Under the pieces are notes generated by a model. That model saw only the letters and a list, made by a program, of their open reading frames with translations. It was not told the origin of the DNA and ran no database searches. Positions 1 to 29,849 of a DNA stretch of 64,000 nt are shown in pieces. The stretch covers positions 124,001 through 188,000 of the forward strand of contig NZ_FOBX01000002.1 of NCBI RefSeq assembly GCF_900109945.1. Direction: 5' to 3'. The stretch is from Bradyrhizobium sp. OK095 (GTDB lineage Bacteria; Pseudomonadota; Alphaproteobacteria; Rhizobiales; Xanthobacteraceae). Both the position numbers and the translations under genes were made by a program. Positions within the stretch are counted from its first letter, which is position 1, and each line of letters opens with the position of its first letter.

Positions 1-635
1 ACGACGCGCGCCGAGGCGGCGGCGGGATTAATCAGCACCGCACCGATGGCATGGGCAAACTCGCCGGTCTTGCGGCAGCTCTTGGCATAGCCCCAATGTG
101 CCGATGCTGCGCGGGCCGGGACGTGGATAGCCTCGACGATCTCGCCCGGGTGTAACGCCGATTCCAGCGCACCGAGAACAAATGCATCTACGGCTAGCGT
201 GCGCGCGCCGGCAAGGCTGCGCAGCGTCACGCGCGCGCCCAAGGCCGCCAGTGCCGAAATCCAGTCCGCGGCGGGATCGGCGTGGCTGAGCGATCCGCCG
301 ATGGTGCCGCGGTTGCGCACCGCGCGATAGGCGATGTTGGCCGCAACGCCGCGCATGGCGCCGCGGGTTACGTCGGCGGTGCGCCCGTCCTCGATATCGG
401 CATGGGTGACCAGAGCCCCGAGCACCAGCTCGTTGCCGACGACCTCCGCCCGCTTGAGCTCGGCAAGGCCCGAGATGTCGACGATCAGCTCCGGCTGAAC
501 CAGCCGCAGATTGAGCATCGGGCCGAGCGACTGCCCACCGGCGATGATCTTTGCCGACGCGCTGTTTGCCGCGAGCATCGACAGCGCCGCGTCGAGATCG
601 CGCGGACGCTCGTAGCTAAAGGGCGCCGGCTTCAT
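1..635 (-). CDS. FAD-binding subunit of a xanthine dehydrogenase/CO dehydrogenase-type hydroxylase (CoxM-like), 3' end cut by window
   Basis: This is the medium, FAD-binding subunit of a molybdenum hydroxylase, which passes electrons from the Mo/Fe-S subunits to an acceptor. The N-terminus is present (MKPAPFSYERP) and is followed by the two hallmark FAD motifs of the family, AGGQSLGPMLNLRL near residue 32 and GTIGGSLSHADPAAD near residue 110. The C-terminal part lies beyond base 1. Its ATG at 635 overlaps the TGA of the upstream molybdopterin subunit (ATGA), so the two are translationally coupled. A small [2Fe-2S] subunit is expected next, outside the window. The substrate cannot be read from this subunit. 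Confidence 0.9.
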   Translation of the reverse strand, partial: MKPAPFSYERPRDLDAALSMLAANSASAKIIAGGQSLGPMLNLRLVQPELIVDISGLAELKRAEVVGNELVLGALVTHADIEDGRTADVTRGAMRGVAANIAYRAVRNRGTIGGSLSHADPAADWISALAALGARVTLRSLAGARTLAVDAFVLGALESALHPGEIVEAIHVPARAASAHWGYAKSCRKTGEFAHAIGAVLINPAAASARV

Positions 636-3007
636 GCCGCGCTCCTATCCGCTGCACGCGCAGCCAGCACGGCCGCGACGACACGGTGCGGCGTGATCGG
701 CGACTGCATCAGCTCGACACCGAGCGGGCGCAGCGCGTCGTTGACGGCGTTGGCGATCGCGGCCGGCGGCGCGATCGCACCGCCCTCGCCGATGCCCTTC
801 ACGCCGAACTGCGTATAGGGCGACGGCGTCTCCATGTGATCGAGGCGCGCGGCCGGAACCTCGGTCGGGCCCGGCAGCAGATAATCGGCAAGCGTCGTCG
901 CCAGCGGCTGGCCGGAGGCATCGAACGGCATTTCCTCGTAGAGCGCGGTGCCGATGCCTTGCGCGAGACCGCCATAGATCTGGCCGTCGACCACAAGCGG
1001 ATTGACCAGGACGCCACCGTCCTCGACGATCACATAGTCAAGAATTTCCACCTCGCCGAGATCAGGATCGACCGCGACAAGGGCCGCATGCGCAGCGTAG
1101 CTGAAGGTGCCGCTGTCGCGCACGGGCTTGTAGCCTTGCGTCACCTCGAGCCCGCCGGGATCGACGTCCGCCGGCAGGTCTTGCGGGCGCCGATACCAGG
1201 TGTGGGCGATCGCCTTCAGGCTGACGCTGCCGTTGACGCCGCGCACCTCGCCATTCTGCAACACCACCGCGGCCGGATCGTGCTGCAACAGCTTCGCGCC
1301 GATGCGCCTGGCACGTTCGCCGAGCTCGCGGCAGGCGGTGGCCACCGCGCCGCCCGCCATCACCATCGAGCGCGAGCCCCAGGTGCCGGTCGAATAGGGC
1401 GTCATCGCGGTGTCGCCGAGGATGATGCGGATTTTTGCGACGTCGATGCCGAGCATCTCGTGCGCGACCTGGGCGAGCGTGGTCTCCAGGCCCTGCCCGT
1501 GCGAATGCACGCCGACGCGCAATTCGAGGCCGCCATCCGGCGTCAGCCGTGCGGACGCCTGCTCATGCCCCGGCACCATCGGAATGCCCCAGCCGGCATA
1601 AACCGAGGTGCCGTGCGCGGCCTGCTCGCAATAGATAGAGATTCCGACGCCGATGCGGCGGCCGTCGGCCTCGCCCTCGCGTTGCCTGGCGCGAATGGAA
1701 TCGATGTCGATCGCGGCCAGCGCGCGGCGCATTGCTTCCGGATAATCGCCGCTGTCAAAATGCTTCCTGGTGATGTTGTCGAACGGCATCTGCTCCGGCA
1801 GCACCAGATTGCGCAACCTGACTTCACCGGGCTCAAGGCCGGCTTCGGCCGCCACGAGATCGAGCATCAGCTCCAACGCGAAGCAGACGCCGGTGCGCGC
1901 CACGCCGCGATACGGCAGGATCGGGCATTTGTTGGTGGCGACCGAGAAGGTGCGGCAGCGATAGGCCGGCATCTTGTAGGGGCCGGGCAGGATGCTCGCG
2001 ACCTGGGCGGCTTCGAGGCAGGCCGAGAACGGATAGGACGAGTAGGCGCCGGAATCCACCGTCGCCTCGCAATCGATGCCGCGCAGCGTGCCGTCGCTGT
2101 CAGCATAGAGCGTGATCTTGTAATGATGCTCGCGGCAATTGGAGCTGGCGACGAGGTGCTCGCGGCGATCCTCGATCCAGCGCACGGGATGACCGCGCTG
2201 CATGGTCAGCCAGGACAGGCAGACCTCTTCGGGCAGCAAAATCCCCTTGTGGCCGAACCCGCCGCCGACATCGGGCGAGATGACGCGGATCTGGCCCTCC
2301 TCCATATCAAGGCATTCGGCAAGGCCGCTGCGCGTGATGTGCGGCATCTGCGCCGCGGAATGCAGCGTCAGCTGGTCGAGCCGCCGGTCGAAGGTCGCGA
2401 CCACGCCGCGCCCCTCCAGCGGCGACATGCATTGCCGCGCGGTCGAGATCTCGCGCGTCACCTTGATCGGCGCGTCGAGTGCTGCGGAGATATCGACCTC
2501 GTAATTGGTCTCCAGGAAAACGTTGTCGCCCCAATGCTCATGCACCAGCGCCGAGCCGGGCTCGCGCGCCTTCAGCATGTCGGTGATCGCAGGCAGCTCC
2601 TCCAGATCGAGCGTCACGGAGGCCGCGATGTCCTCGGCCTCGGCGCGCGTCGGCGCGAGGCACATCGCGACGAGCTCGCCGACCTGGCGGACCTTGCCGG
2701 TGGCCAGCACCGGCTGCTCGGAAATCTTGAAGCCCGGCAATCCCGACACTGCGCGGATCGGCTTGATGCCGACGAGGTCTGCTGCCGTGAAGACGCTGCC
2801 GCGATGGCGTTCGGGCACGTGGATTCCACGGATCCGCGCATGCGCCAGCGGGCTGCGCACGAAGGCGACGTCGTGAAGGCCGGCGAGCCTGATGTCGGCG
2901 ACGTACTGGCCGCGGCCCCGCATCAGGCGGTCGTCCTCCTTGCGCGGCAGCCGTGCGCCCACGCCCTGCCCGGATTTGCCCGAAGGAAACTCCCGCTCGT
3001 TGCGCAA
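632..3007 (-). CDS. Molybdopterin-binding large subunit of a xanthine dehydrogenase-family hydroxylase
   Basis: Large catalytic subunit of about 790 residues, normal for the CoxL/XdhB-like family. It has the GxGARLPRKEDDRL start, the cofactor-binding GGGFGHKG near residue 250, PYRGVARTG near 370, and a C-terminal GEGG whose Glu is the expected catalytic base. The AYxCSFR loop of true form-I CO dehydrogenase is absent, so it is not a CO dehydrogenase; an N-heterocycle or aldehyde hydroxylase is more likely. I chose a TTG start at 3007 because a perfect AAGGAGG lies 8 nt upstream of it; a GTG at 3025 is the alternative. It follows the amidohydrolase gene by a short gap and overlaps the FAD subunit by 4 bp. 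Confidence 0.9.
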   Translation of the reverse strand: MRNEREFPSGKSGQGVGARLPRKEDDRLMRGRGQYVADIRLAGLHDVAFVRSPLAHARIRGIHVPERHRGSVFTAADLVGIKPIRAVSGLPGFKISEQPVLATGKVRQVGELVAMCLAPTRAEAEDIAASVTLDLEELPAITDMLKAREPGSALVHEHWGDNVFLETNYEVDISAALDAPIKVTREISTARQCMSPLEGRGVVATFDRRLDQLTLHSAAQMPHITRSGLAECLDMEEGQIRVISPDVGGGFGHKGILLPEEVCLSWLTMQRGHPVRWIEDRREHLVASSNCREHHYKITLYADSDGTLRGIDCEATVDSGAYSSYPFSACLEAAQVASILPGPYKMPAYRCRTFSVATNKCPILPYRGVARTGVCFALELMLDLVAAEAGLEPGEVRLRNLVLPEQMPFDNITRKHFDSGDYPEAMRRALAAIDIDSIRARQREGEADGRRIGVGISIYCEQAAHGTSVYAGWGIPMVPGHEQASARLTPDGGLELRVGVHSHGQGLETTLAQVAHEMLGIDVAKIRIILGDTAMTPYSTGTWGSRSMVMAGGAVATACRELGERARRIGAKLLQHDPAAVVLQNGEVRGVNGSVSLKAIAHTWYRRPQDLPADVDPGGLEVTQGYKPVRDSGTFSYAAHAALVAVDPDLGEVEILDYVIVEDGGVLVNPLVVDGQIYGGLAQGIGTALYEEMPFDASGQPLATTLADYLLPGPTEVPAARLDHMETPSPYTQFGVKGIGEGGAIAPPAAIANAVNDALRPLGVELMQSPITPHRVVAAVLAARAADRSAA

Positions 3008-3034
3008 ATCCGCGCCCTCCTTCACCGCCCGGCC

Positions 3035-4312
3035 TTACGCCGCGACGGCTTGCGGCAGGATCGGCGCGACCGCGTCGAAGCGCGTGCCGGCGCGCAGGCA
3101 GAACGCCGGCTGAAGCAGGCGCTCGGCGATCACCTCGTTCTTCTCGTTGTCCTTCAGGACGAAACGGCCGTTCTTCTCGGAGAGCACCGAGACGTCGGCG
3201 TCCATGCCGACCTTGAGCGCGCCGATCTCCCCGCTGCGGCCGAGCATCTTTGCTGGATTGGAGGTGACCATCGGCACCACCTGCTCCAGCGACAGGCCGA
3301 GCGCCATCATCGAGCTCATCGCCTGCACCAGGCTGAACTTGGCCTGGCCCGCGAACGGATGGTTCTCCTCGTCCTCGTGCTGGTCGGGCGTGCCGGCGGG
3401 TGCGGGCACATGGGTGTTGTAGCCGTGAATGTCGGCACCCAGCGTATTCGGCATGATGCCGGCGGCGATCGCCTTCTTGGCGAGCCGGTAGGAGAAGTGG
3501 CTGCCGTGACCGACATCGACCTTGAGGCCGCGGTCGAGCGCCGCCTGGATCACCGGATGCACCTCGCCCTCGCGGTTGACGAAGCCGCCAGGATGGCGCG
3601 TGAACGGGTGGGCGAGCACGTCGCCTTCGCGCAGCAGCGGGATCACGCGCGTGAGGATGGTGTCGGCATCCTCACCGTTGGCGCCGCTCTCGGGCAGGCC
3701 CCAGAGCTGGCCGAAATGCACATAGACCGGCAGATCGGCGCGCTTGCCGATCTCCGCCGCCATCTCGATGACGCGAATGCCCCAGCGCGCGAAGCCGCCA
3801 ATCTCGGCATGCGCCTTGATGCCGCGCACGATGTCGAGATTGGCCGTCGCCGCCTTGACGGTCGCATCGATATCGACGCCGTCGGGGCTGTAGAGCTGCG
3901 GATAGAAGTGCCCCTCGAGTCCGCCAACGAGATAGGCCGACAGGAAGGCGTAGACGCGCGACGCCGAGGCTTCCGCGATGAAATGGCGAAAGCCTGGCAG
4001 CGTCATGCAGGACGGGCCGCCCTGGTCGACCAGCGTCGTCACGCCCGACTGCACGCCGACCATGTCGGGGTTCATGCCAAAGCGTCCCGAGACATATTGA
4101 TAGACATGCGCGTGGGTGTCGATCAGGCCGGGCAGCACCAGCTTGCCGCCGACATCGACGACCTCCTTCGCACTGGTCGGCAGGATGTCAGGCGCGACCG
4201 CCGCAATCTTGCCGCCGCGAATGGCGACGTCCCTGATGCCGTCCACGCCCGAGGCCGGGCAGATCACGCGACCACCTCGCAGCAGAAGGTCGAAGCTGGC
4301 TGTGACGGACAT
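3035..4312 (-). CDS. Amidohydrolase/deacetylase-family metallohydrolase
   Basis: Cyclic-amide hydrolase of the amidohydrolase superfamily, 425 residues. Metal-site residues are visible in the usual order: HAH at 67-69, a candidate carbamylated Lys at 166 (GIKAHAEIGG), His199 (VYVHFGQ), His near 235 (DVLAHPF) and Asp294 (GADIHG). Relatives are annotated as dihydroorotase-like or D-aminoacylase/deacetylase-like enzymes; the substrate is unknown. It is the first gene of the leftward operon with the Mo-hydroxylase subunits, which suggests ring hydroxylation coupled to ring or amide hydrolysis. Its upstream region carries a sigma-54-type promoter and two copies of the palindrome also found in front of the NCS1 permease. 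Confidence 0.88.
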   Translation of the reverse strand: MSVTASFDLLLRGGRVICPASGVDGIRDVAIRGGKIAAVAPDILPTSAKEVVDVGGKLVLPGLIDTHAHVYQYVSGRFGMNPDMVGVQSGVTTLVDQGGPSCMTLPGFRHFIAEASASRVYAFLSAYLVGGLEGHFYPQLYSPDGVDIDATVKAATANLDIVRGIKAHAEIGGFARWGIRVIEMAAEIGKRADLPVYVHFGQLWGLPESGANGEDADTILTRVIPLLREGDVLAHPFTRHPGGFVNREGEVHPVIQAALDRGLKVDVGHGSHFSYRLAKKAIAAGIMPNTLGADIHGYNTHVPAPAGTPDQHEDEENHPFAGQAKFSLVQAMSSMMALGLSLEQVVPMVTSNPAKMLGRSGEIGALKVGMDADVSVLSEKNGRFVLKDNEKNEVIAERLLQPAFCLRAGTRFDAVAPILPQAVAA

Positions 4313-4360
4313 GACGGTCTCCTCTCCTCACACGGGCGATTGCTTCCCGCCCCGAGATTA

Positions 4361-4374
4361 CGAAGCATGCTTCG
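4361..4374. promoter_or_regulatory. Candidate MarR operator, copy 1 (perfect 14-bp palindrome)
   Basis: CGAAGCATGCTTCG is a perfect palindrome in the leader of the amidohydrolase gene. Its centre is 26 bp from copy 2, and the same core recurs before the NCS1 permease. Assignment to the adjacent MarR regulator is inference from position. Confidence 0.65.
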
Positions 4375-4383
4375 CATTTCGAT

Positions 4384-4403
4384 ATACGAAGTATGCTTCG
4401 TAT
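4384..4403. promoter_or_regulatory. Candidate MarR operator, copy 2
   Basis: ATACGAAGTATGCTTCGTAT has perfect 8-bp arms (ATACGAAG/CTTCGTAT) around a 4-nt centre. It touches the predicted start point of the leftward sigma-54 promoter and lies 1 bp upstream of the rightward TTGACA element, so a bound repressor could affect both directions. Confidence 0.7.
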
Positions 4404-4404
4404 T

Positions 4405-4432
4405 TTGACAAAAGCAAGCATCATGCCATGAT
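4405..4432 (+). promoter_or_regulatory. Candidate sigma-70 promoter of the MarR gene
   Basis: A consensus -35 TTGACA (4405-4410) is followed after 16 nt by CATGAT (4427-4432, 4 of 6 matches to the -10 box). It reads toward the MarR regulator and directly abuts operator copy 2, fitting autoregulation. Confidence 0.45.
4413..4428 (-). promoter_or_regulatory. Sigma-54 (-24/-12) promoter of the amidohydrolase/Mo-hydroxylase operon
   Basis: On the minus strand TGGCATGATGCTTGCT matches the sigma-54 consensus TGGCACG-N4-TTGCW with one mismatch and the required 10 nt between GG and GC. The predicted start point near 4402 lies within palindrome copy 2, giving a leader of about 90 nt to the ATG at 4312. 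Confidence 0.65.
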
Positions 4433-4483
4433 CAAGCGGTGGCGGCCGCGTTCGAATCGAGCTAAGCGCGGCAGGGTTTCGGG

Positions 4484-4993
4484 TTGGGAGAGCGTGCATT
4501 GCGGCAAGCACAGAAGCGTCGCGGCGGGGGCAAGCACCGCCCCTGGCCATTGTCGCAACGTCCCGGCTATCTGATCCGGCGGTTGCACCAGATTCACGTC
4601 GCACTGTTTCAGGACGCCTGCGGCGAGTTCGAGGTCACGCCGCTGCAATACAGCCTGCTCTCGGCGCTGGCGGTGCGCGAAACCGCCGATCAGACCAGTT
4701 TGGCAGCCGATATCGCTCTCGATCGGACCACGACGACCGGCGCATTGAAGCGGCTCGCCGCACGAAACCTGGTCGAGCGCGCCGTCAACAAGGACGATCG
4801 CCGCGCGCGCTTGTGCCGATTGACGCCGGCCGGCGCCGCCCTGCTGGTCAAGATCGAGGGCGCTGCGCGGCAGGCGCATCGTGCGACGCTCGGTGATCTC
4901 AGCGAAAAGGAACAGGCGCTCTTCATCGAAATGATGCAGCGCATCGTCGCCGGCAACCCCAGTCGCGACAGCTCCGCTGCCCTATTCGACTAG
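4484..4993 (+). CDS. MarR-family transcriptional regulator
   Basis: Winged-helix dimeric repressor of about 169 residues. The helix-turn-helix lies around residues 45-90 (TPLQYSLLSALAVRE, then TSLAADIALDRTTTTGALKRL) and the wing follows (LVERAVNKDDRRARLCRLTPAG). No ATG exists in frame; a TTG at 4484 with AGGG upstream is used here and a TTG at 4499 is equally possible. The gene is flanked by operator-like palindromes at 4361, 4384 and 5241, so it probably represses itself, the leftward hydroxylase/amidohydrolase operon and the rightward permease/amidase pair. Its ligand is likely a substrate or intermediate of that pathway. Confidence 0.9.
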   Translation: MGERALRQAQKRRGGGKHRPWPLSQRPGYLIRRLHQIHVALFQDACGEFEVTPLQYSLLSALAVRETADQTSLAADIALDRTTTTGALKRLAARNLVERAVNKDDRRARLCRLTPAGAALLVKIEGAARQAHRATLGDLSEKEQALFIEMMQRIVAGNPSRDSSAALFD

Positions 4994-5218
4994 AAGCTGC
5001 TGCTGCACTTTTGAGTTGGGCTGCTTAATTTATCATCGTGCCGCTGCCCGGCTGAGCGACGTCCTCCACCTCTTGCCGGCAAGGCCAACGGATGAGCGAT
5101 GCCTGAAACGTGCAGCGGCGCGACGTCGTAGCGCGCTTGAAATTTCAGGTGCAATCCGGCGCGGCGCACGTTGCGTCCGGCGTCGGCGCACGCCCTGCTC
5201 CGGCCGCCTCGCAACCGA
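4994..5218. other. Intergenic stretch without a convincing gene
   Basis: Between the MarR stop and the sigma-54 promoter of the permease I see no supported gene. The only distinct element is the 12-bp palindrome CTTGCCGGCAAG at 5072-5083. Short open frames here have an arginine-rich composition typical of GC-rich non-coding DNA. Confidence 0.5.
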
Positions 5219-5234
5219 TGGCACGATTTATGCT
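5219..5234 (+). promoter_or_regulatory. Sigma-54 (-24/-12) promoter of the NCS1 permease operon
   Basis: TGGCACGATTTATGCT matches TGGCACG-N4-TTGCW with a single mismatch, and GG (5220-5221) and GC (5232-5233) are separated by exactly 10 nt. The predicted start point near 5245 falls inside the palindrome at 5241-5260. Confidence 0.7.
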
Positions 5235-5240
5235 GCGATG

Positions 5241-5260
5241 ATGCGAAGCGTGCTTCGTAT
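5241..5260. promoter_or_regulatory. Candidate MarR operator, copy 3
   Basis: ATGCGAAGCGTGCTTCGTAT has arms matching copies 1 and 2 (7 of 8 positions symmetric). It lies between the -12 element and the ribosome-binding site of the NCS1 permease, 12 bp before its ATG. Confidence 0.7.
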
Positions 5261-5272
5261 TTGGGGGATGTC

Positions 5273-6691
5273 ATGACGGATTCCGAACTTCGCGCTGATA
5301 TTCACAGCATCGAACCAATTCCCGATGCGGACCGGGACTCGACCGGGCCGCAGCAGATGTGGATCTGGGCCGGCGCCAACATCGCACCGGTAAACTGGGC
5401 GCTCGGCGCGCTCGGCATTATTCTGAAGCTCGGCCTGATGGAAACGATCGCGGTCATCGTGCTCGGCAACATCGTCGGCTGCGCGATTTTCGCGACCTTC
5501 ACGGTGATGGGACACAAGACCGGCGTCAACCAGATGGTGTTGAGCCGCTCCGCCTTCGGCGTCCGCGGCGCCTACCTGCCCAGCATCCTGATGTTCGTGA
5601 TGACGCTGGGCTGGATCGGCGTCAACACCTACTTCCCGGTCAAGATCTCGATCGGCATCCTCGGCCAGTTCGGCGTGCCCGACACCTGGCTGGTGGAGAT
5701 CATCATCATCACGCTGGTGATGGCCGCGCAGGTCCTGATCGGCATCTACGGCTTCTACGCGATCCGCACCTTCGAGAAATACACGGTGCCGCCGACCATC
5801 GCCATCATGGCGCTGATGAGCGTGCTGGCCTGGACGCGTCCCGGCGTCGTCAACTGGAGCCTTGCGACGTCGCTGCCGCCGGGCGCGCATCTGGCGATGC
5901 TGACGCTGCTGATGACCGCGATCGGCGTCGGCTGGGGCATTTCCTGGGTGACCTGGGCGTCCGACTATTCGCGCTTCGTGCCGCGAAGCGTATCGTCGAA
6001 ATCCGTGTTCTGGTACAGCTATGTCGGCATGTTCGTGCCGACGGTGTGGCTCGGCATTCTCGGCGCGACCATTGCCTCGACGACGCTGGACACCGATCCC
6101 GCAAAAATGGTCAGCGCGGTGTTCGGCGGTCCGGTCAGCATCCTCGTTCTCCTGATGGTGCTGCACGGCCCGATTGCCACCAACATCCTCAACGTCTACT
6201 CGGCGACGCTGGCGGCGCTGAGCGCTGGGCTCAAGCTCTCGCGCTTCTGGCTCACCGTCATCGTCGGCGTCGCCGGTTATCTGGTCACGCTCTACTTCAT
6301 CTTCGCGCCGTCCTTCGCGAAGGCGTTCGACAATTGGATGATCAGCCTGCTGCTGTGGATGAGCCCGTGGGCCGGCGTGGTGCTGGCCGACTTCTTCATC
6401 AAGCGGAAGGGCAAGATCGAGGTCGCCGAGCTCTATCGCTCACCGGAGACCAGCGCCTATGGCGACATCAACTGGGCCGGCATGGTCGCGTTCTTTGCGG
6501 GCCTCGTCGCCGGATGGCTGGTCGAAGACGGTCTCGTCGGCGCGCTGCAAGGACCGGTCTCGATCAACCTGCTCGGCGGCGCCGATCTGAGCTGGCTGTT
6601 CGGCATCGGAGTGGCGGGCCTCGTCTATCTTGGGCTCGGCAAGTTCGCGACCTCGCCCTCCTCGATCGTTGCGGGCAGCGCAGGCAGGTAA
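5273..6691 (+). CDS. NCS1-family nucleobase/hydantoin-type permease
   Basis: Inner-membrane secondary transporter of 472 residues with about 12 hydrophobic segments. The family start is clear: QQMWIWAGANIAPVNWALGA, then a glycine-rich first helix and SRSAFGVRGAYLPS. NCS1 members import cytosine, purines, allantoin, hydantoins or related N-heterocycles; the exact substrate cannot be read. I chose the ATG at 5273 because a GGGGGA ribosome site precedes it and the upstream in-frame codons overlap the promoter and operator. It is followed after 9 bp by the amidase gene, so import and amide hydrolysis are co-expressed, apparently from a sigma-54 promoter under MarR control. Confidence 0.9.
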   Translation: MTDSELRADIHSIEPIPDADRDSTGPQQMWIWAGANIAPVNWALGALGIILKLGLMETIAVIVLGNIVGCAIFATFTVMGHKTGVNQMVLSRSAFGVRGAYLPSILMFVMTLGWIGVNTYFPVKISIGILGQFGVPDTWLVEIIIITLVMAAQVLIGIYGFYAIRTFEKYTVPPTIAIMALMSVLAWTRPGVVNWSLATSLPPGAHLAMLTLLMTAIGVGWGISWVTWASDYSRFVPRSVSSKSVFWYSYVGMFVPTVWLGILGATIASTTLDTDPAKMVSAVFGGPVSILVLLMVLHGPIATNILNVYSATLAALSAGLKLSRFWLTVIVGVAGYLVTLYFIFAPSFAKAFDNWMISLLLWMSPWAGVVLADFFIKRKGKIEVAELYRSPETSAYGDINWAGMVAFFAGLVAGWLVEDGLVGALQGPVSINLLGGADLSWLFGIGVAGLVYLGLGKFATSPSSIVAGSAGR

Positions 6692-6700
6692 CGACAGATC

Positions 6701-7651
6701 ATGGACTTCGTTCTGCAATCCACGCCCGGAAATGTCCAATGGGGACTCTGGGATGGACGATCGAAACCGGTGCTCCGGATCGCATCCGGAGACCGGGTGA
6801 CCATCGAGACGCTGTCGGGCGAACCGGACGATCTGCCCGATCCGTCGCTCGGCTATGACATCGTTCCCGGACACGCGGAGGTGCTGGCAAGCACTTTTCG
6901 CGGTCCGGGACCGCATCTCCTCACCGGTCCCGTCTACATCGAGGGCAGTGAGCCCGGTGACGTCCTTGAAGTGCGCGTCCTCAACATCGCGCTGCGCTGT
7001 AATTGGGGCTGGAATATCCAGGTCCCGACCCTCGGTACCCTGCCGGAGGATTTCCCGGAATTCCGCCGCATCCACATTCCGCTGGACCGAGCGCGCAATG
7101 TCGCGCGGCTGCCGTGGGGACAGGAGCTGCCGCTCTCCCCCTTCTTCGGCAATTTCGGCGTCGCGCCGCCGCCGTCCTGGGGCCGACTGTCCTCGAAGGA
7201 GCCGCGGGCGTTCGGCGGCAACATGGACAACAAGGAGCTCGGTGCCGGCAGCACGCTGTATTTTCCGGTGTTCGTGCCGGGCGCGCTGTTCTCGGCCGGC
7301 GACGGCCACGCGCTCCAGGGCGATGGCGAAGTCTGCCTGACCGCGATCGAGGCCGCGCTCACCGGCACCTTCGAATTCCACGTCCGCCGCGATCTCCACC
7401 TCACCTCGCCGCGTGCGGAGACGGCGTCGGACTGGATCACCATGGGATTCGACGAGGATCTCGACGACGCCGCCAAGGCCGCGCTGCGCGACATGATCGC
7501 GCTGATCCGGGAGAAAAGCGGCCTCAGCGCGCAGGATGCCTATACGCTCTGCTCGATCGCCGCCGACCTCAGGGTCACGCAGCTGGTCGACGGCAACAAG
7601 GGCATTCACTGCGTGCTGGCGAAATCCCGCATGCCCATGAAGCAGATCTAG
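6701..7651 (+). CDS. Acetamidase/formamidase-family amidohydrolase
   Basis: FmdA/AmdA-type enzyme of 316 residues that hydrolyses a short amide to acid plus ammonia. Family features seen are the N-terminal beta-rich part ending GYDIVPGHAEV, the GPVYIEGSEPGDVLEV segment near residue 80, GGNMDNKELGAGSTLYFPVFVPGALFSAGDGHALQGDGE near 170-210, and the conserved SIAADLRVTQLVDGNKGIHCVL end. It follows the NCS1 permease by 9 bp. A nitrogen-release step for the imported heterocycle's breakdown product is the simplest reading. Its stop codon overlaps that of the convergent RraA-like gene by 4 bp. Confidence 0.9.
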   Translation: MDFVLQSTPGNVQWGLWDGRSKPVLRIASGDRVTIETLSGEPDDLPDPSLGYDIVPGHAEVLASTFRGPGPHLLTGPVYIEGSEPGDVLEVRVLNIALRCNWGWNIQVPTLGTLPEDFPEFRRIHIPLDRARNVARLPWGQELPLSPFFGNFGVAPPPSWGRLSSKEPRAFGGNMDNKELGAGSTLYFPVFVPGALFSAGDGHALQGDGEVCLTAIEAALTGTFEFHVRRDLHLTSPRAETASDWITMGFDEDLDDAAKAALRDMIALIREKSGLSAQDAYTLCSIAADLRVTQLVDGNKGIHCVLAKSRMPMKQI

Positions 7652-8358
7652 GTCCGATCGCTCCAGACGGCGTCGATCTCGACGATGCCGGCAGCTTCAA
7701 ACAAGCTCTTCATCCCCGCGACATCGTAAAGCGTCTGCCCCTCGTCGAGCCGCCGCTTGATCTCGGCTTCCTTGGCCACCCGCGCCTCGGCATCGCGCAC
7801 CGCAGCCTCGACCTGAGCGGGCGGGATCGCCATGACGCCATCGGCATCGCCGACGATGAGATCACCGGGATTGACGGTGACGCCTGAGACGACCACGGGG
7901 ACATTGACCGCACCCGGGCCGCGTTTGCCGGGATAGGACACTGAGACGCAGGAGGCGAACACCGGAAACGCCATCTCGGTGATCTGCAGCGTGTCGCGCA
8001 TTGCGCCGTCGATCACGGCGCCGCCCAATTGCCTGATCCGGCTGTAGTAGCTCGCGATCTCGCCCCACAGCGCGCCCTGCGGCGAGCCACCATTGGTCAG
8101 CACGAGGATGTCGCCGGGCGCAGCAACCCGGAACGCCGCATGAAGCATGAGATTATCGCCGGGAAAATTGAACGAGGTGATCGCCTGGCCGCAGATCCGG
8201 GCGGCCGGGAACAGGGCGCGCATTTGCGGCTGCATCAGGCACTGCCGGCCGACGACGGGCCCCAATCCCTCATGCAGATCGGCGACATTGATGCGGCTGG
8301 CGCGCGCGATAAGCGCGGGATCAAGCCGGGGGATCCGTGTGTAGACGACTGATTGCAC
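7648..8358 (-). CDS. RraA-like / 4-carboxy-4-hydroxy-2-oxoadipate aldolase-family protein
   Basis: 236-residue member of the RraA/class II pyruvate-aldolase fold. The active-site signature is intact: GALWGEI near 95-101 and DGAMRD with Arg121-Asp122, the metal and pyruvate-binding pair of CHA/HMG aldolases; PVVVSGVTVNPGDLIVGDADGV follows. Because those residues are present, an aldolase or oxaloacetate-decarboxylase role is more likely than RNase E inhibition. It is the last gene of a leftward catabolic block that also has a PDC-hydrolase-like protein, which fits the lower part of an aromatic-acid pathway (inference). Confidence 0.85.
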   Translation of the reverse strand: MQSVVYTRIPRLDPALIARASRINVADLHEGLGPVVGRQCLMQPQMRALFPAARICGQAITSFNFPGDNLMLHAAFRVAAPGDILVLTNGGSPQGALWGEIASYYSRIRQLGGAVIDGAMRDTLQITEMAFPVFASCVSVSYPGKRGPGAVNVPVVVSGVTVNPGDLIVGDADGVMAIPPAQVEAAVRDAEARVAKEAEIKRRLDEGQTLYDVAGMKSLFEAAGIVEIDAVWSDRT

Positions 8359-8411
8359 TGTGATGTCCTTTCGAAGGTGAAAATAGCCTCGTCAGCGGCG
8401 ACCGCGCGTCA

Positions 8412-9398
8412 TCACCGGACGACCGCGGGTTTCGGCTCGCTGAGCTGCGTCGAAACCATTGTGCTGAGAACGCGCCTGACGGTTGCGAGATCGCTGTCGG
8501 GGATGTCCTGAAACAGGATCGCTTCATTGGCACGCGCATGGGCCACGATCGCGCGAAGGCGCCCTTCCCCTTCCGCGGTCAAACGAATGCGGCCGTGATC
8601 ATCGACGGCGACCAGCCCCAGCGACACGACCGATTCAAGAAGACTGCGGCTGGCGCCGAAATCGAGGAACAGCTCCGGCATCAACGCGTCGAGCGTGCGG
8701 TCGGGCGAGGTCGCCGCGGCGCGCAGCAGCCGCGCCTGCATCAGCGTGAGGCCGAGCCCTTCCGTCTGCCGCCCCTGCTCCAGCCGCGATGCGATGCTGC
8801 TGTAAGCGCGGATCATGAGGTTGGACAGCACGCGCTCCTCGCCGCCGTCGGGCCGGTCCGCACTTCCGCCGCCAGCGAAGGCACGCATGTCGGGATGCTC
8901 GGCCGAGACTGCATAGCCGCCCCTGACGAACAGCAGCGGCCGCCGATCGTGGCGATGGTAGCGCACGACCTCACCGATCAGGATGAGATGATCGCCGCCA
9001 TCGAGGGTCTGGCGACAGACGCATTCGAACGAGGCCGCGACGCCGGCGAGCAACGGGGCTGCGCCCTCGCCTGCGCCACAGTCGAGATCCCCAAACTTGT
9101 CCGGCCCCGACCGTGCAAAGCGCTGCGACAGCTCGATCTGGTCTTCAGCGAGGACGTTCACGGCGAAATGTGAGCACGCCGCGAAGGCGGCAAAACTCTT
9201 GCTCTCCCGGCGGATCGACCACAGTACCAACGGGGGATCGAGCGAGACCGAGGTGAACGAGTTCGATGTCAGGCCGAAGCGCTCGCCGCCCGCCGACGTC
9301 GAGATAACAGTGATGCCGGTTGCGAATTCGGCGAGACTACGCCGAAAGCCCTCCAGCTCGACACGGGGGTCTCCACTCTCGATCGGTGATTTCATCAA
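8412..9398 (-). CDS. Flavin reductase with C-terminal MarR-like domain
   Basis: Two-domain protein of 328 residues. Residues about 18-165 are a flavin reductase-like FMN-binding barrel (FRRSLAEFATGITVIST, GLTSNSFTSVSLDPPLVLWSIRRESKSF, FAVNVLAEDQ). After a linker near 170-188, residues about 190-320 look like a MarR winged helix (LMQARLLRAAATSPDRTL, then HGRIRLTAEGEGRLRAIV). This architecture is known from the reductase (C1) component of Acinetobacter p-hydroxyphenylacetate hydroxylase, where the MarR-like part binds the effector and relieves autoinhibition. It probably supplies reduced FMN to the NtaA-type monooxygenase at 11428-12735. Confidence 0.85.
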   Translation of the reverse strand: MMKSPIESGDPRVELEGFRRSLAEFATGITVISTSAGGERFGLTSNSFTSVSLDPPLVLWSIRRESKSFAAFAACSHFAVNVLAEDQIELSQRFARSGPDKFGDLDCGAGEGAAPLLAGVAASFECVCRQTLDGGDHLILIGEVVRYHRHDRRPLLFVRGGYAVSAEHPDMRAFAGGGSADRPDGGEERVLSNLMIRAYSSIASRLEQGRQTEGLGLTLMQARLLRAAATSPDRTLDALMPELFLDFGASRSLLESVVSLGLVAVDDHGRIRLTAEGEGRLRAIVAHARANEAILFQDIPDSDLATVRRVLSTMVSTQLSEPKPAVVR

Positions 9399-9423
9399 CG
9401 ACTCCGTTCAGCCTGATTAGTCA

Positions 9424-10380
9424 TCACACCGTGGTCACGCGGATTTGGATTCCCCGCCGCGGCGACTGGCGATCGACGGTTGCGGCGATCCATTCGGAAA
9501 AACGACGCCGCAGCTCGCTCAGCAGCCATTGCGCGGCCGGCCCCGGCGGCTGCTCGATCTTGTGCACGGCATAGAGCGGAAACCGCAGCGGCTCGCCGTT
9601 ATGCGCGGCGAGCTTCAGCTCCACGAGCTCGCCGGAATCGAGATAGGATTGCGCAAGATGGGTCGGCATCGCACACCAGCCAAAGCCGTTACGAACGAAG
9701 TCGAGCCGGCTGAACTGATCGATGAAGCTCCAGGTATGCGTTCCCATCACGACGCCGCGGTAACGCTTGGTGCGATCGACCATGGTCAGCTGAATGTGCT
9801 CTTCCAGCGCGGCCTGCGGAATCAATCCCTCGATCGTCGCCAGCGGATGACGGGACGACGCCACCAGCGAGATCGGCACGTCGCCGAGAAATTCCATCTG
9901 AAAGCCCGGCATGCCGTCGAGCGCGGTCGAATAGATTGCGAGCCGCGCATTGCCTTCGAACAGCGACTGCTCGGGCGCCCCGAGGCCTTCGGCGAGCAGG
10001 TTCACCGAGACGAGCGGGAAGCGCTCGCGAAACGCGCGCAGGCTCTCGATCAGCACCGAGCTCGGAAAGACCTGCTCGATCGAGAGGCTGATCTCGGGCT
10101 CGGCCACGGTCGCCATGTTTTTCGCGCGGGCACGCAGCGCATCCGTGCCGCTGACGATCCGTCGCGCGTCCTGGACGATCGCCTTGCCGGCCTCCGTCAG
10201 CCGGGGCAGCTTGCTCGAGCGGTCGAACAGTTTTAGTTCGAGCGCGTCCTCGAGCGATTGAATGGATTGGCTGACCGCCGACTGGACACGATTGACCTTG
10301 CGCGCAGCCGCAGAGAAATTGCCGCAATCCGCGACGGCGATCAGCATCTGGAGTTGGTCCAGCGTCACCCTGGAGAGCAT
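9424..10380 (-). CDS. LysR-family transcriptional regulator
   Basis: 318-residue LysR regulator. The N-terminal helix-turn-helix is clear: MLSRVTLDQLQMLIAVADCGNFSAAARKVNRVQSAVSQSI, residues 1-40. The effector-binding domain spans about 95-300. The ATG at 10380 has AGGTGG six nt upstream and matches the family N-terminus; the longer frame to 10548 has no LysR-like sequence in its extension. It sits inside a leftward run between an amidohydrolase and the flavin reductase/MarR fusion, so it probably controls this TRAP/monooxygenase block. Confidence 0.92.
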   Translation of the reverse strand: MLSRVTLDQLQMLIAVADCGNFSAAARKVNRVQSAVSQSIQSLEDALELKLFDRSSKLPRLTEAGKAIVQDARRIVSGTDALRARAKNMATVAEPEISLSIEQVFPSSVLIESLRAFRERFPLVSVNLLAEGLGAPEQSLFEGNARLAIYSTALDGMPGFQMEFLGDVPISLVASSRHPLATIEGLIPQAALEEHIQLTMVDRTKRYRGVVMGTHTWSFIDQFSRLDFVRNGFGWCAMPTHLAQSYLDSGELVELKLAAHNGEPLRFPLYAVHKIEQPPGPAAQWLLSELRRRFSEWIAATVDRQSPRRGIQIRVTTV

Positions 10381-10459
10381 GTTCCACCTAGCCCAATGAG
10401 TTGAATCGGGCCGAGCAGGCCCTCCCATCAGGTCAATGAAACGGTCAGCCCGGCGCACC

Positions 10460-10477
10460 ATCATTATATCTGATGAT
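10460..10477. promoter_or_regulatory. Candidate promoter/operator of the LysR gene
   Basis: The minus strand has a perfect -10 TATAAT (complement of 10463-10468) inside the inverted repeat ATCAT-N8-ATGAT, about 85 bp upstream of the LysR start. No good -35 hexamer is visible at 16-18 nt, as expected for an activator-dependent or weak promoter. Confidence 0.3.
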
Positions 10478-10553
10478 AGCGCAATGCATCTGCCCTGATC
10501 GGGTCGATCAGGCGCCGCGTGAGCAGATGGCAGGGCAATTTGGGACATGTCGG

Positions 10554-11417
10554 CTACCCGAACCCGTAGAGACGGGCAGGATTGTCGGAGAGGATGGCCT
10601 GGCGAGCGGGCGGATCAGGCGCCCAGCTCAGGAGCAGATCCAGGAGGTCGGCGTCGTCAGGCATGGTCTCGGCCGTCTCGGTCGGATGCGGCCAGTCCGA
10701 TCCCCACAGCAGGCGATCCGTGCCCTGCCGAACGAGCGCCTGCGCAATCGGCGCGACCTCCCTGTAGTCGGGGCCATCGGCATGGGCGATGTGATAGGCG
10801 CCTGAGAGCTTGACATAGACGTTGTCGCGCGCAGCCAAACGCAGCAGCGACTGGACGGCGGGATGCGCCACCGCGAGCGGATGGGCATAACGGCCCATAT
10901 GGTCGATCACCAATGTGCAGGGCAAACGCGCGAGCAGCGCCTCATGCTCCGGAAATTCCAGTCCGTCGAACTGGATCTGCAGATGCCAGCCGGTGCCGCG
11001 GATCCGTTCCGCCATCACGGGAACGTCGGGCCATTCGGTGACGCTGCCCTGCATCTGATGGTAGCGCAGGCCGCGCGCGCCACCTTGCCAGAGCCGGTCG
11101 AGCTCGCTTTCGGTGACATCAGTCGGCACGGTCACGACCGCCCGCGCGCCGGGACCGAACGCGGCCACCGAATTCAGCGTGCAGCGATTGTCGAAACCGT
11201 AAGTGACGGGCTGAACGACGATCGTGCGTTGCAAGCCGAGCCGGGCCTGCACCTTGCGATAATCCTCGACGCTGAAGTCAGGCGGAAACAGCCAGGCCTT
11301 GGACGAGGCCGGATATGCCCTGCTGTAGATGTGCATATGCGTATCGCAGGCCCCAAGGGGAGCCTTGAGTTCGGGAGATCGTGGCTTTGAATTGTTCGAC
11401 ATCTCGAAAACACCCAT
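10554..11417 (-). CDS. Amidohydrolase-family protein, 2-pyrone-4,6-dicarboxylate hydrolase-like
   Basis: 287-residue TIM-barrel hydrolase of the amidohydrolase_2 group. Landmarks are CDTHMHIY at 24-31, VIDHMGRY near 170-177 and WGSDWPHP near 238-245 with the catalytic Asp at 241. These fit the LigI-like branch that opens lactones such as 2-pyrone-4,6-dicarboxylate. The ATG at 11417 has GAGG upstream; a second ATG at 11402 is possible. It directly follows the FMN monooxygenase gene. With the RraA-like aldolase it could form a lactone-hydrolase/aldolase pair, but the actual substrate is not known. Confidence 0.85.
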   Translation of the reverse strand: MGVFEMSNNSKPRSPELKAPLGACDTHMHIYSRAYPASSKAWLFPPDFSVEDYRKVQARLGLQRTIVVQPVTYGFDNRCTLNSVAAFGPGARAVVTVPTDVTESELDRLWQGGARGLRYHQMQGSVTEWPDVPVMAERIRGTGWHLQIQFDGLEFPEHEALLARLPCTLVIDHMGRYAHPLAVAHPAVQSLLRLAARDNVYVKLSGAYHIAHADGPDYREVAPIAQALVRQGTDRLLWGSDWPHPTETAETMPDDADLLDLLLSWAPDPPARQAILSDNPARLYGFG

Positions 11418-11427
11418 AGCCCGCGCC

Positions 11428-12735
11428 TCAGTTCATCAAATTGTCGTGGAGGGTTTCGCCGTCATAGTCAGTTCGGAAGATGCCCTTCGCTTGCAGCAGC
11501 GGGACGACCTCGTCGACAAAGTTCTCGACACTCGCAATGTTGGTCGTCGGCGTGATGTTGAAGCCATGACAGCCGCTCGTGCGCCAGAGATGCTCGAGCT
11601 GGTCGGCGACCTGCTCCGGCGTACCGACCAGCTGCGGCATGCCGGCGGTCGCCCCGAAAACGCGCGCCGCGTCGCGCGCGGTCGCGTTGCCATCGCCGGT
11701 CGTGTTGGCCAGCGCCATCAGCATGCCGCGCGAGGCATCGGTCGTGTTGGCCGCCAGCGGCGTGTCGAGGTCGATCCTGCTGAAGTCGATGCCGAGCGTG
11801 CCGGACATCCGGCTGAGCGCGGCATCGAGCGGGATGCGATCGAACATCTGGGCCTGGCGACGTTTAGCCTCGGCCTCGGTGCCGCCGAGCACGCATTGAA
11901 TGCCGAACACCACTTTCGGCGGTTCGGCGCGCCCCTGCGATGTCGAGGAGTCCGCAAGCTTGTCGACGAAACCCTTCATCGCCTCCACCCGCGCCTGGAT
12001 CGAGAAGACGACGTCGCTGTGCTTGAGCGCGAATTCCTGACCGCGGCCTGACGAGCCCGCCTGAAACAGCACGGGCCGTCCCTGCGCCGACGGCAGGGTT
12101 GGCGAGACCGTATGGCAGCGGTAGTGCGTGCCTTTGAAGTCGACCACCGCGACCTTGGCCGGGTCGGCGAACTGGCCGTTTTGCCTGTCGGCGAGAATGG
12201 CGCCGGGCTGGATCCCGTTCCACAGCGCGTGGCAAATCTCCATGTACTCGTCGGCCTGGTCGTAGCGCTTGTCGTGCTCGATCTGGTCGAGGCCGAGCGC
12301 GCGATGCTCGCCGCGCAGATGACCCGACACGATGTTCCAGCCGACGCGCCCGCCGCTGAGATAGTCCAGCGTCGAGAGCCGGCGCACGGTGTGGTAGGGA
12401 TGCGTCCCCGCCGTCGACAGCGTGACGGCGAGCCCGAGATGCTTGGTCTCCGCCAGCATCACGCCCAGCAAGGCCATCGGGTCGTGGCAGGGCCAGGTGA
12501 CACCGTAGCGGACATAATCTTCAAAGCTGTCCTTGTAGCGTTCCATGCCGCCCGGCGTGTCGGCAAAGAATGCCGCATCGAAACGGCCGCGCTCGAGCGT
12601 TCGTGCGAGACGCTTCCAATGCTCGAACTGCCGCATACCCTCCACGCGGTCGTCCTCGGGATCGGCCCAGCTCAGCGCCGTATGGTTGATCGGGCTGTGC
12701 ATGTAGAAGCCGATCAGGTGCATGCGTTTGGTCAC
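11428..12735 (-). CDS. NtaA/SnaA/DszA-family FMN-dependent monooxygenase
   Basis: 435-residue bacterial luciferase-like monooxygenase that uses reduced FMN from a partner reductase. Typical family segments are FYMHSPINHTALSWADPEDD, GRFDAAFFADTPG, LSTLDYLSGGRVGWNIVSG near 135-153 and PVLFQAGSSGRGQEFA near 220. Relatives oxidise nitrilotriacetate, dibenzothiophene sulfone and similar C-N or C-S compounds; the substrate here is unknown. The flavin reductase/MarR fusion three genes downstream is the obvious partner. It follows the alpha-hydroxy-acid oxidase gene by 40 bp. Confidence 0.9.
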   Translation of the reverse strand: MTKRMHLIGFYMHSPINHTALSWADPEDDRVEGMRQFEHWKRLARTLERGRFDAAFFADTPGGMERYKDSFEDYVRYGVTWPCHDPMALLGVMLAETKHLGLAVTLSTAGTHPYHTVRRLSTLDYLSGGRVGWNIVSGHLRGEHRALGLDQIEHDKRYDQADEYMEICHALWNGIQPGAILADRQNGQFADPAKVAVVDFKGTHYRCHTVSPTLPSAQGRPVLFQAGSSGRGQEFALKHSDVVFSIQARVEAMKGFVDKLADSSTSQGRAEPPKVVFGIQCVLGGTEAEAKRRQAQMFDRIPLDAALSRMSGTLGIDFSRIDLDTPLAANTTDASRGMLMALANTTGDGNATARDAARVFGATAGMPQLVGTPEQVADQLEHLWRTSGCHGFNITPTTNIASVENFVDEVVPLLQAKGIFRTDYDGETLHDNLMN

Positions 12736-28412: not shown

Positions 28413-29849
28413 TCACCGCGACTCCTCCATTTTTCGCGCGTCCCGCGCAACCACGGCCTGCGGCACGTCATAGACGCTGAGTGAAGCCCAGTGCCGTTCG
28501 ACATCGGCACGAAACAGGCCGCGCGTCAGGCCATTGACCAGCTTTGGAACAGCCGTCGTCATCGCGTTGATCGACGATCCCGACGGACCAAAACTCATGG
28601 TGGAGGCGATGGCGAAGAGATGGATGTCCTGGATCCACGGCGTCGTACCCGGCACGCGCTCGGTGAATGCATAATCGTCGGCGAGATAGGGGAAGCGGCC
28701 GAGCCGCGCATTGCGCTCGCTCTCCGGCGGCTGGTAGCGATCGGCCCAGGTCGCGATATTGCCGGCGAATTTGGCGAGCTCGCCGCGGCCAGCAAAATTC
28801 ATGTCGATGCCGGTGCCGCAGATGACGAAATCCGCAGTAATCACGCCGCGCGGCGTTTGCAGTTCAACGCCGTCAGCGGTCTGACGCGCAGCCTCGAGCG
28901 GCGCGCCCTCGTGCAATGTGAAACTGGGGTGACGCGCGCAGCGGTCATATGTCGGCTGCGGAAATCCCTCGCGCATTTCGAGGATTTTGCGCATGAAGCG
29001 CCAGCGCCAGGCATCGTCGAGATCGCTGAGATGACGCAGGAAGCCGCGGAAGGTCAGCCAGCGATAAGGCTGGATCAATTGGATCTGGGCGCGGCGGCAC
29101 AGCAGATGCACTTCGGCCGCGCCTGCCTCCAGCCCGGTTGCCGCATTGTCGAAGGCGGAAGCACCGGCGCCGATCACCGCGACGCGCTTGCCGCGCAGGC
29201 TTTCGAAATGGATATCGTTAGCGACGGTTGTGACCGAACTCGCCGGCAGATCGCGTAGCGGCTCCGGGATCATCCAGTCGCCCATGCCCTCCTGCCCCGT
29301 CGCCAGAACGATCTTGCGCGCATAAAGGGTCTCGACGCCATCGGCGCGCTTCACGCGCGCGGCGAGCAGGCCGTCGATCGAAGGCGAAATCTCCAAGAGC
29401 TCGCAGCCGTTACGTACCGGCAAGCTGATCGTGCGTCGCAGCCAGAGCAGATACTCCGCCCAATGCTCTCTCAGGATCAGGTTCAGTGTCTGCCAGCTCT
29501 CCTTGCCGAAGCGGGCTTCGTGCCAGGACTGATAGGTCAGGCTAGGGATGTCGAGGTCGGGCCCGGTATAGTCCTTCGGGCTGCGCAGCGTCGGCATGCG
29601 GGCATAAGTGAGCCACGGGCCCTCCTTCCCCTCCTCGGCCTTGTCCAGCAGCAGGATGTTGCTGACGCGCGAGCGCATCAGGCCGAAGCCGATCGCGATG
29701 CCGGATTGGCCGGCGCCGACGATCAGCACGTCCAGCGCGGGCTTGCCGTCCGGCCCCGTTTTCGCTTCGAGCCACGCGGCGCCGGGATGCGCGATCATGG
29801 CGAGATCGGCGCGAACATCCGCTTCAAGCTCTGTCAGCGCGTCACTCAT
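28413..29849 (-). CDS. Flavin-containing monooxygenase / NAD(P)-dependent FAD oxidoreductase
   Basis: 478-residue two-dinucleotide-fold flavoprotein. The FAD-binding GAGQSG is at 45-50 and the NADPH-binding GAGASA at 227-232; ATGQEG and CGTGID motifs follow. The full Baeyer-Villiger fingerprint FxGxxxHxxxW is not visible, so N- or S-oxygenation or a related reaction is open. ATG 29849 overlaps the stop of the SDR gene. The large open frame to 30251 is a shadow of that SDR. It belongs to the run of oxidoreductase genes below the hydantoinase. Confidence 0.88.
   Translation of the reverse strand: MSDALTELEADVRADLAMIAHPGAAWLEAKTGPDGKPALDVLIVGAGQSGIAIGFGLMRSRVSNILLLDKAEEGKEGPWLTYARMPTLRSPKDYTGPDLDIPSLTYQSWHEARFGKESWQTLNLILREHWAEYLLWLRRTISLPVRNGCELLEISPSIDGLLAARVKRADGVETLYARKIVLATGQEGMGDWMIPEPLRDLPASSVTTVANDIHFESLRGKRVAVIGAGASAFDNAATGLEAGAAEVHLLCRRAQIQLIQPYRWLTFRGFLRHLSDLDDAWRWRFMRKILEMREGFPQPTYDRCARHPSFTLHEGAPLEAARQTADGVELQTPRGVITADFVICGTGIDMNFAGRGELAKFAGNIATWADRYQPPESERNARLGRFPYLADDYAFTERVPGTTPWIQDIHLFAIASTMSFGPSGSSINAMTTAVPKLVNGLTRGLFRADVERHWASLSVYDVPQAVVARDARKMEESR

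Follow-up and report, generated by a model that had tools for sequence, protein, structure and literature searches.

A MarR-family protein encoded in Bradyrhizobium sp. OK095 very probably represses two sigma-54 promoters from predicted operators at +1, an arrangement that would form an AND gate for a substrate and a sigma-54 activator. In the explanation that we favour, MarR would bind 18-bp palindromes whose first base lies on the transcription start site, or a few bases from it, at two sigma-54 (RpoN) promoters, one serving a leftward amidohydrolase and molybdenum hydroxylase operon and the other a rightward unit of an NCS1 permease and a formamidase. Without inducer, bound MarR would stop either melting of the start site or escape from it. 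An inducer, probably a substrate or an intermediate of the pathway, would release MarR, and transcription would even then require a sigma-54 activator, for which NtrC is our guess. Expression of the genes would require both the substrate and a sigma-54 signal, perhaps nitrogen limitation acting via NtrC, a guess prompted by the types of gene present (amidohydrolase, formamidase, permease) and by the parallel with HutC. To this explanation as a whole (MarR at about +1 of two sigma-54 promoters, release by inducer and a continued need for a sigma-54 activator) we assign a probability of roughly 0.8. The sites, their spacing, their conservation, their tie to one MarR recognition helix, and the genes for RpoN and for activators are all present in the DNA itself.

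The gene at the centre of the locus (Table 1) encodes a protein with a MarR winged-helix domain, with both PF01047 (E 1.6e-10) and PF12802 (E 1.2e-8) scoring above their cut-offs in a profile search. TTG 4499 is favoured as its start because GGGAGAG sits immediately 5′ of this codon. The leftward and rightward units were each read as an operon because the gaps that follow the amidohydrolase and the permease are only 9 bp, and the leftward operon continues beyond the window edge through the FAD subunit to a 2Fe-2S/CoxG protein and ABC-transporter genes. The first-pass annotation had placed hydroxylase, amidohydrolase, permease and amidase in one regulon, and this grouping fits the gene order on both sides of marR. 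Adjoining the rightward unit, positions 7648-12735 of the window contain genes for an RraA-like aldolase, a flavin reductase, a LysR regulator, a sulfomuconolactone-hydrolase-like protein and an NtaA/DmoA-type monooxygenase, which perhaps belong to a linked catabolic pathway.

Table 1. Features of the marR locus, in coordinates of the window (the whole stretch of 64,000 nucleotides that was analysed)
Feature	Position	Strand	Description
FAD subunit of molybdopterin hydroxylase	1..635	-	extends past window edge
Molybdopterin hydroxylase large subunit (xanthine/CO dehydrogenase type)	632..3025	-	9 bp past amidohydrolase
Amidohydrolase/deacetylase-family metallohydrolase	3035..4312	-	gene 1 of leftward operon; NF006689 above cut-off
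Predicted second leftward operator O1, TACGAAGCATGCTTCGCA	4359..4376		+27 to +44
Predicted MarR operator O2, TACGAAGTATGCTTCGTA	4385..4402		spans +1 to +18 of leftward sigma-54 promoter
Probable sigma-70 promoter of marR, TTGACA-16-CATGAT	4405..4432	+	TG before -10; consensus scan
-24/-12 element TGGCATGATGCTTGCT	4413..4428	-	GG-N10-GC; predicted +1 at 4402
marR	4499..4993	+	preferred start TTG 4499; ORF from TTG 4484 to 4993; PF01047 match
Conserved island CTTGAAANNNCAGNNNCAATC	5136..5156	+	upstream of permease -24 box, in otherwise variable marR-permease spacer; candidate activator site
-24/-12 element TGGCACGATTTATGCT	5219..5234	+	GG-N10-GC; predicted +1 at 5245
Predicted operator O3, TGCGAAGCGTGCTTCGTA	5242..5259		spans -3 to +15 of permease promoter
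NCS1-family permease (cytosine/purine/allantoin type)	5273..6691	+	gene 1 of rightward unit
Acetamidase/formamidase family protein	6701..7651	+	9 bp past permease

Copies of the palindromic core CGAAG-N4-CTTCG occur in the window at 4361-4374, 4387-4400 and 5244-5257, and again at 29507-29520; shuffled sequences contained 0.10 copies on average and reached four in 0 of 100 trials. The fourth copy, at 29507-29520, has a CGGG spacer and does not fit the predicted operator type. Extended to 18 bp, the sites conform to YRCGAAGYRYRCTTCGYR, and those at 4359-4376, 4385-4402 and 5242-5259 are the only three in the 7,846,124-base genome, all of them flanking marR, with a backwards version of the pattern giving 0 matches. 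The bare core is found 48 times genome-wide (25 for its backwards control), so specificity would reside in the flanks and the YRYR spacer. The claim of the first-pass annotation that three copies flank a single marR gene is thereby confirmed, and the sites themselves had been located correctly; their starts had been given in mixed registers, 4361 being the start of a core while 4384 (ATACGAAG) and 5241 (ATGCGAAG) are the starts of extended palindromes.

Start points were predicted by setting the GC box of each -24/-12 element at -12. The operator core lies 25 nt downstream of the rightward element and 28 nt downstream of the leftward one, and both operators cover the predicted +1 (from +1 to +18 on the left and from -3 to +15 on the right), in agreement with the overlap proposed from the first reading. 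The strict pattern TGGCAYG-N4-WTGCW has 12 matches in the genome, compared with 3 for the control, and two of the 12 are the elements beside marR. By chance, 3.2e-5 strict elements would be expected 24-30 nt upstream of any of the three operators, and the probability of at least two is about 5e-10, both figures being post hoc as the motif was picked after the sites had been seen. The sigma-54 gene, rpoN, is encoded at one place in the genome (PF04552, E 7.9e-70).

Among 265 genomes of the genus, 99 contained a MarR match at E <= 1e-30; five MarR matches were just 39-43% identical, and the amidohydrolase was absent beside those five loci. With identical sequences counted once there were 95 left and 57 permease promoter regions, many of them from close relatives, and the counts are not independent trials. 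On the permease side, TGGCAYG-N4-WTGCY followed 24-30 nt on by an operator was present in all 57 non-redundant regions, with an exact operator core in 52 and a core that is one base off in five. Here the element stands directly 3′ of poorly conserved sequence. Where ATTTATGC is altered it becomes ATTGTTGC, with the GC kept, and one locus has AATTATGC. In three loci (L016, L020 and L066) the marR-permease spacer is shortened to 121-123 bp, and when L016 and L066 were aligned the conserved stretch started at ATGGCAC, which suggests that selection at the permease promoter keeps the -24/-12 element and the operator. The upstream island CTTGAAANNNCAGNNNCAATC is missing from L016 and L066, as it is from L020, judging in the latter case from the equal spacer length.

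On the left, the strict element was present in 51 of the 52 loci of the main group (the exception, L141, reads TGGCACAGAGCTTGCT), in 27 of 27 in a middle group, and in four of the 16 loci of a clade with 60-70% MarR identity, where operators are kept. In that clade the -12 GC has become GG or GA in nine loci, and three match no pattern, L112 among them reading GGGCATGAAGCTTGCT. The left promoters of L115, L116, L118, L119, L121-L123, L125 and L126 retain the -24 box as TGGCACG (TGCCACG in two) and have GG or GA in place of the -12 GC; a possible cause is decay of sigma-54 dependence under a retained predicted MarR operator. Second operators of the same clade had no TGGCA-N8-GC within 100 bp (0 of 9). 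Since operators are kept as the -12 decays, and second operators stand apart from such elements, MarR sites do not need sigma-54. Distal operator copies in two genomes of the clade (L167:1890 and L168:1881; G040 and G205) precede genes for ABC-transporter periplasmic binding proteins, so the regulon would not be exclusively sigma-54-dependent everywhere; in L168 the operator is also followed, on the minus strand, by TGGCATACCGTTTGCT. Main-group loci have between one and four left operators, and at L040 and L059 the tandem operators have grown to four and three copies.

The 18-bp site was also surveyed in 23 chosen genomes of the 265, where it occurred in 19 of 19 with a MarR ortholog and in 0 of 4 without one. 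Three genomes (G004, G040 and G205) have one such site each away from the marR locus, and the backwards control pattern matched in G066 (twice) and G007 (once).

Relatives of the amidohydrolase at E <= 1e-150 were present in 61 of 295 genomes of the family, and 40 of 50 loci from other genera were fetched. Where a MarR gene is adjacent (28 loci), element and operator lie 27-28 nt apart in 27, with a one-base operator variant in three, and one locus, L212, has an operator without a -24/-12 element. Twelve loci had no adjacent MarR by tblastn: element and unchanged operator occur together in two, the element is combined with a different palindrome in two (genus g38), a related palindrome stands without the element in three (genus g34), and five have neither. 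Pooling all left loci gave 163, of which 135 were non-redundant and 122 were used (12 without adjacent MarR and one without operator were left out), with an operator pattern that admits some one-base variants. GG-N10-GC was found 18-34 nt upstream of the left operator in 109 of these 122 loci, 108 of them with TGGCA. When the gap was changed to 7, 8, 9, 11 or 12 in the same loci, between 0 and 3 matched; a gap of 13 gave 24 of 122 and a gap of 6 gave 64, an excess due at least partly to a second GC within elements like TGGCATGATGC. The first-pass annotation had proposed comparing the corresponding intergenic regions of related genomes for conservation of the palindrome, and there both palindrome and element are kept, in the 109 of 122 left loci and in the full permease set.

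Column conservation was counted with the loci (all but L068 and L212, for which registration failed) registered on the -24 box, which makes that box conserved by construction. An independent reading therefore comes from the -12 columns alone; these columns (TTGCT) are 90-99% conserved, compared with 60-71% for the four inner columns. The nearest operator core lies 26-29 nt from the start of the -24 box in 113 of the 120 registered loci.

A composite DNA pattern was then used alone to search 385 class-level and 397 order-level genomes, of which 9 and 29 matched. Of 19 loci fetched, all six with a YRYR spacer had the amidohydrolase and MarR, compared with none of the 13 with other spacers. Two of the six were already known, and the other four come from two further families of the order and have a divergent amidohydrolase-marR pair. 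Outside the 19, eight more matches with a YRYR spacer were found in genus g356. At ten amidohydrolase promoters of other genera (L202, L203, L204, L206, L207, L209, L210, L211, L217 and L218) an FNR/FixK-like box, TTGAT-N4-[AG]TCAA, stands just 5′ of the -24 element, which suggests an additional oxygen-linked input.

These observations bear on the question of promoter type. MarR operators could sit on ordinary sigma-70-family promoters and act by classical occlusion, GG-N10-GC being coincidental or the mark of another promoter type; we regard this as unlikely. The left -24 block does overlap the likely marR promoter (its -10, on the other strand), which offers a second possible cause of its conservation. 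That probable promoter overlies the leftward -24/-12 element on the opposite strand and starts two bases past the operator, and its -35 is not conserved across other clades. The permease side, however, has no opposing gene, yet the element is there in every one of the 57 regions. TATGCT within the permease block resembles a -10, but it is lost in L078, L080, L081, L084 and L103 while the GC is retained; no conserved -35 accompanies it, and in L016 and L066 conservation begins only at ATGGCAC. A sigma-70 reading would also accommodate the retention of operators in the 60-70% clade despite a degenerate -12, and the FNR/FixK-like boxes beside the ten -24 boxes of other genera. Against it, the -12 half is conserved even though it was unused for registration, and a consensus scan found no sigma-70-type promoter at its threshold for either the amidohydrolase or the permease.

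The operators are closely tied to one form of MarR. The position of the recognition helix, which we take from general MarR structure, holds the segment LDRTTTTGALKRL in 119 of 122 MarR proteins with CGAAG operators, two others being one residue off and one unmatched, and the segment persists down to 54% overall MarR identity. At four loci in two further families it is exact in two, one residue off in one and unmatched in one. Two genomes, G447 and G455, have an operator at the sigma-54-type promoter of the amidohydrolase (L217 and L218) with no marR adjoining. Their marR genes (L257 and L258; 58% identity) are on a separate contig in one case and about 96 kb off in the other, and encode a helix that is exactly LDRTTTTGALKRL. 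Each of the two genomes has just one 18-bp site, which lies at the amidohydrolase promoter, and no palindrome was found near the unlinked marR within the 3.4 kb fetched around the gene, indicating that the operator follows the target promoter and not the marR gene. The first-pass annotation had described the circuit as closed, that is, with marR regulating itself. In favour of this, the likely marR promoter adjoins an operator; against it, the -35 of that promoter is not conserved and the unlinked marR genes of these two genomes have no palindrome nearby, and we consider autoregulation no more than plausible.

A different pairing of protein and site is found in g38 (two genomes), where a MarR homolog of 44-46% identity, with the helix DR[AT]TLANV[AV]ARL, is encoded at the 3′ end of the operon. 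For L201 and L208 (g38) a different type of regulator had been considered, an idea that was dropped when this homolog was found. The palindrome here is CGTCAG-TATG-CTGACG, or nearly so, and occurs in two places about 7.7 kb apart (L234:4112/11861; L235:3764/11488). The first copy lies on the sigma-54-type element of the amidohydrolase operon; the second lies downstream of marR, about 40 bp upstream of the sigma-54-type element TGGCATGGGAGTTGCA, and not at +1. The g38 protein could be an ortholog that was recoded or else a replacing paralog. The layout of a predicted operator on a sigma-54-type promoter would have survived both relocation of marR and a swap of the MarR-palindrome pair.

The proposal made from the first reading, that operators lie on the predicted +1 of two sigma-54 promoters, is therefore supported by conserved sequence and spacing in three families and by a near-invariant helix, and further by the absence of the site from the four genus genomes that lack a MarR ortholog and by the two genomes with unlinked marR that keep the operator. 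Some MarR proteins activate transcription, and MarR might accordingly be an activator, or a co-regulator that gives the DNA a shape suited to the sigma-54 activator. We consider such a role very unlikely: the second g38 operator, some 40 bp upstream of its element, would suit it, but the conserved operators are downstream of -24/-12 and over +1, which is the position of a repressor, and extra operators extend further downstream still. It is highly improbable that the palindromes work in RNA, as 5′ CGAAG hairpins affecting stability or translation of predicted mRNAs that do start inside or at a palindrome, given that the palindromes accompany one MarR recognition helix, are absent from the four examined genus genomes without the ortholog, and in the 60-70% clade also occur away from any sigma-54-type element.

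From these data we infer that MarR binds and represses and that the promoters are used, and we also infer the AND logic, the blocked step and the nature of activator and ligand. Because the operator starts at +1, MarR would leave the -24/-12 element free, and a sigma-54 closed complex could sit beside the bound repressor. In a tentative extension, one that we hold to be somewhat less than an even chance, this would create a double lock in which MarR blocks activator-driven melting and not polymerase binding, so that a poised, pre-loaded polymerase fires on arrival of the ligand. Ten matches to the activator domain were found genome-wide, none on the contig of the window, with NtrC above its curated cut-off. 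Consensus scans for NtrC (three forms), NifA, IHF and FixK/FNR on both sides of marR rose at most one letter above a single control stretch, the best gains being 9 versus 8 of 12 for one NtrC form on the permease side and 7 versus 6 of 9 for IHF on the left, and NtrC consequently stays a guess. The island CTTGAAANNNCAGNNNCAATC was also tried as a motif common to both sides and dropped, its leftward score (9/16) equalling the control.

Sigma-54 promoters are usually described as activator-controlled because melting of their closed complex depends on an ATP-driven activator. If our reading is true, a MarR lock at +1 in three families would mean that a substrate-sensing repressor can be layered onto the sigma-54 switch with a fixed geometry, and the conserved layout probably confines expression of genes for the use of some compound to conditions in which two independent signals coincide. 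The natural promoter pairs, two per genome in many Bradyrhizobium species, would offer a means to test the step at which a repressor halts sigma-54 polymerase, and the loci as a group supply a natural set of MarR-operator pairs that differ in specificity. The reading further predicts the regulon and the two-signal logic of a Mo-hydroxylase/NCS1-permease pathway in soil bacteria and legume symbionts.

Several known systems share parts of this arrangement. Among the matches listed in a search of the open-licence literature, and in the portions of those papers available, no published case was found of a MarR operator on a -24/-12 (sigma-54) promoter. RpoN promoters of Bradyrhizobium, including nifH, fixA, fdxN and others, have GG at -24 and GC at -12, and a transcription start site map exists for strain USDA 110, according to the retrieved portion of the source (PMC4842269). 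The known RpoN promoters described in that portion belong to nitrogen-fixation genes and are linked to NifA; the elements reported here resemble these nif promoters in GG -24/GC -12 and differ from them in having a local predicted repressor site at +1.

A closer parallel is HutC on hutU. The first-pass annotation had called repression of this kind uncommon, which is fair, but it is not unprecedented: HutC protects a region that overlaps the sigma-54 site at hutU (PMC12977541), and a review has HutC, NtrC and CbrB binding the hutU promoter region (PMC8871633), as stated in the parts of these sources that were available. In the same parts, HutC of Pseudomonas resembles the predicted system in being a substrate-responsive repressor with a site overlapping the sigma-54 region of a catabolic operon and a gene near its targets, and differs in belonging to the GntR family, in having the operator TGTA-N2-TACA and in having known NtrC/CbrB sites. 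The protein of the present locus is of the MarR family and falls outside GntR/HutC; its predicted operators lie downstream of the -12 element, over +1, and no NtrC/CbrB sites were found at this locus. By analogy, it would work like HutC on hutU from outside the HutC family. In P. aeruginosa, BetI, of the TetR family, reportedly acts at the gbdR sigma-54 promoter together with NtrC/CbrB and IHF. The present locus would share with BetI/gbdR, as far as the available text on that system goes, the combination of a local regulator and a sigma-54 activator on one promoter, the protein family being different. With CouR and NadR, as portrayed in the source excerpts, it would share a MarR-type repressor with defined operators and a small-molecule ligand. 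Sigma-54 promoters are thus already known to be targets of repressors from other families; set beside the cases found in that literature, what would be new here is a repressor of the MarR family in that place.
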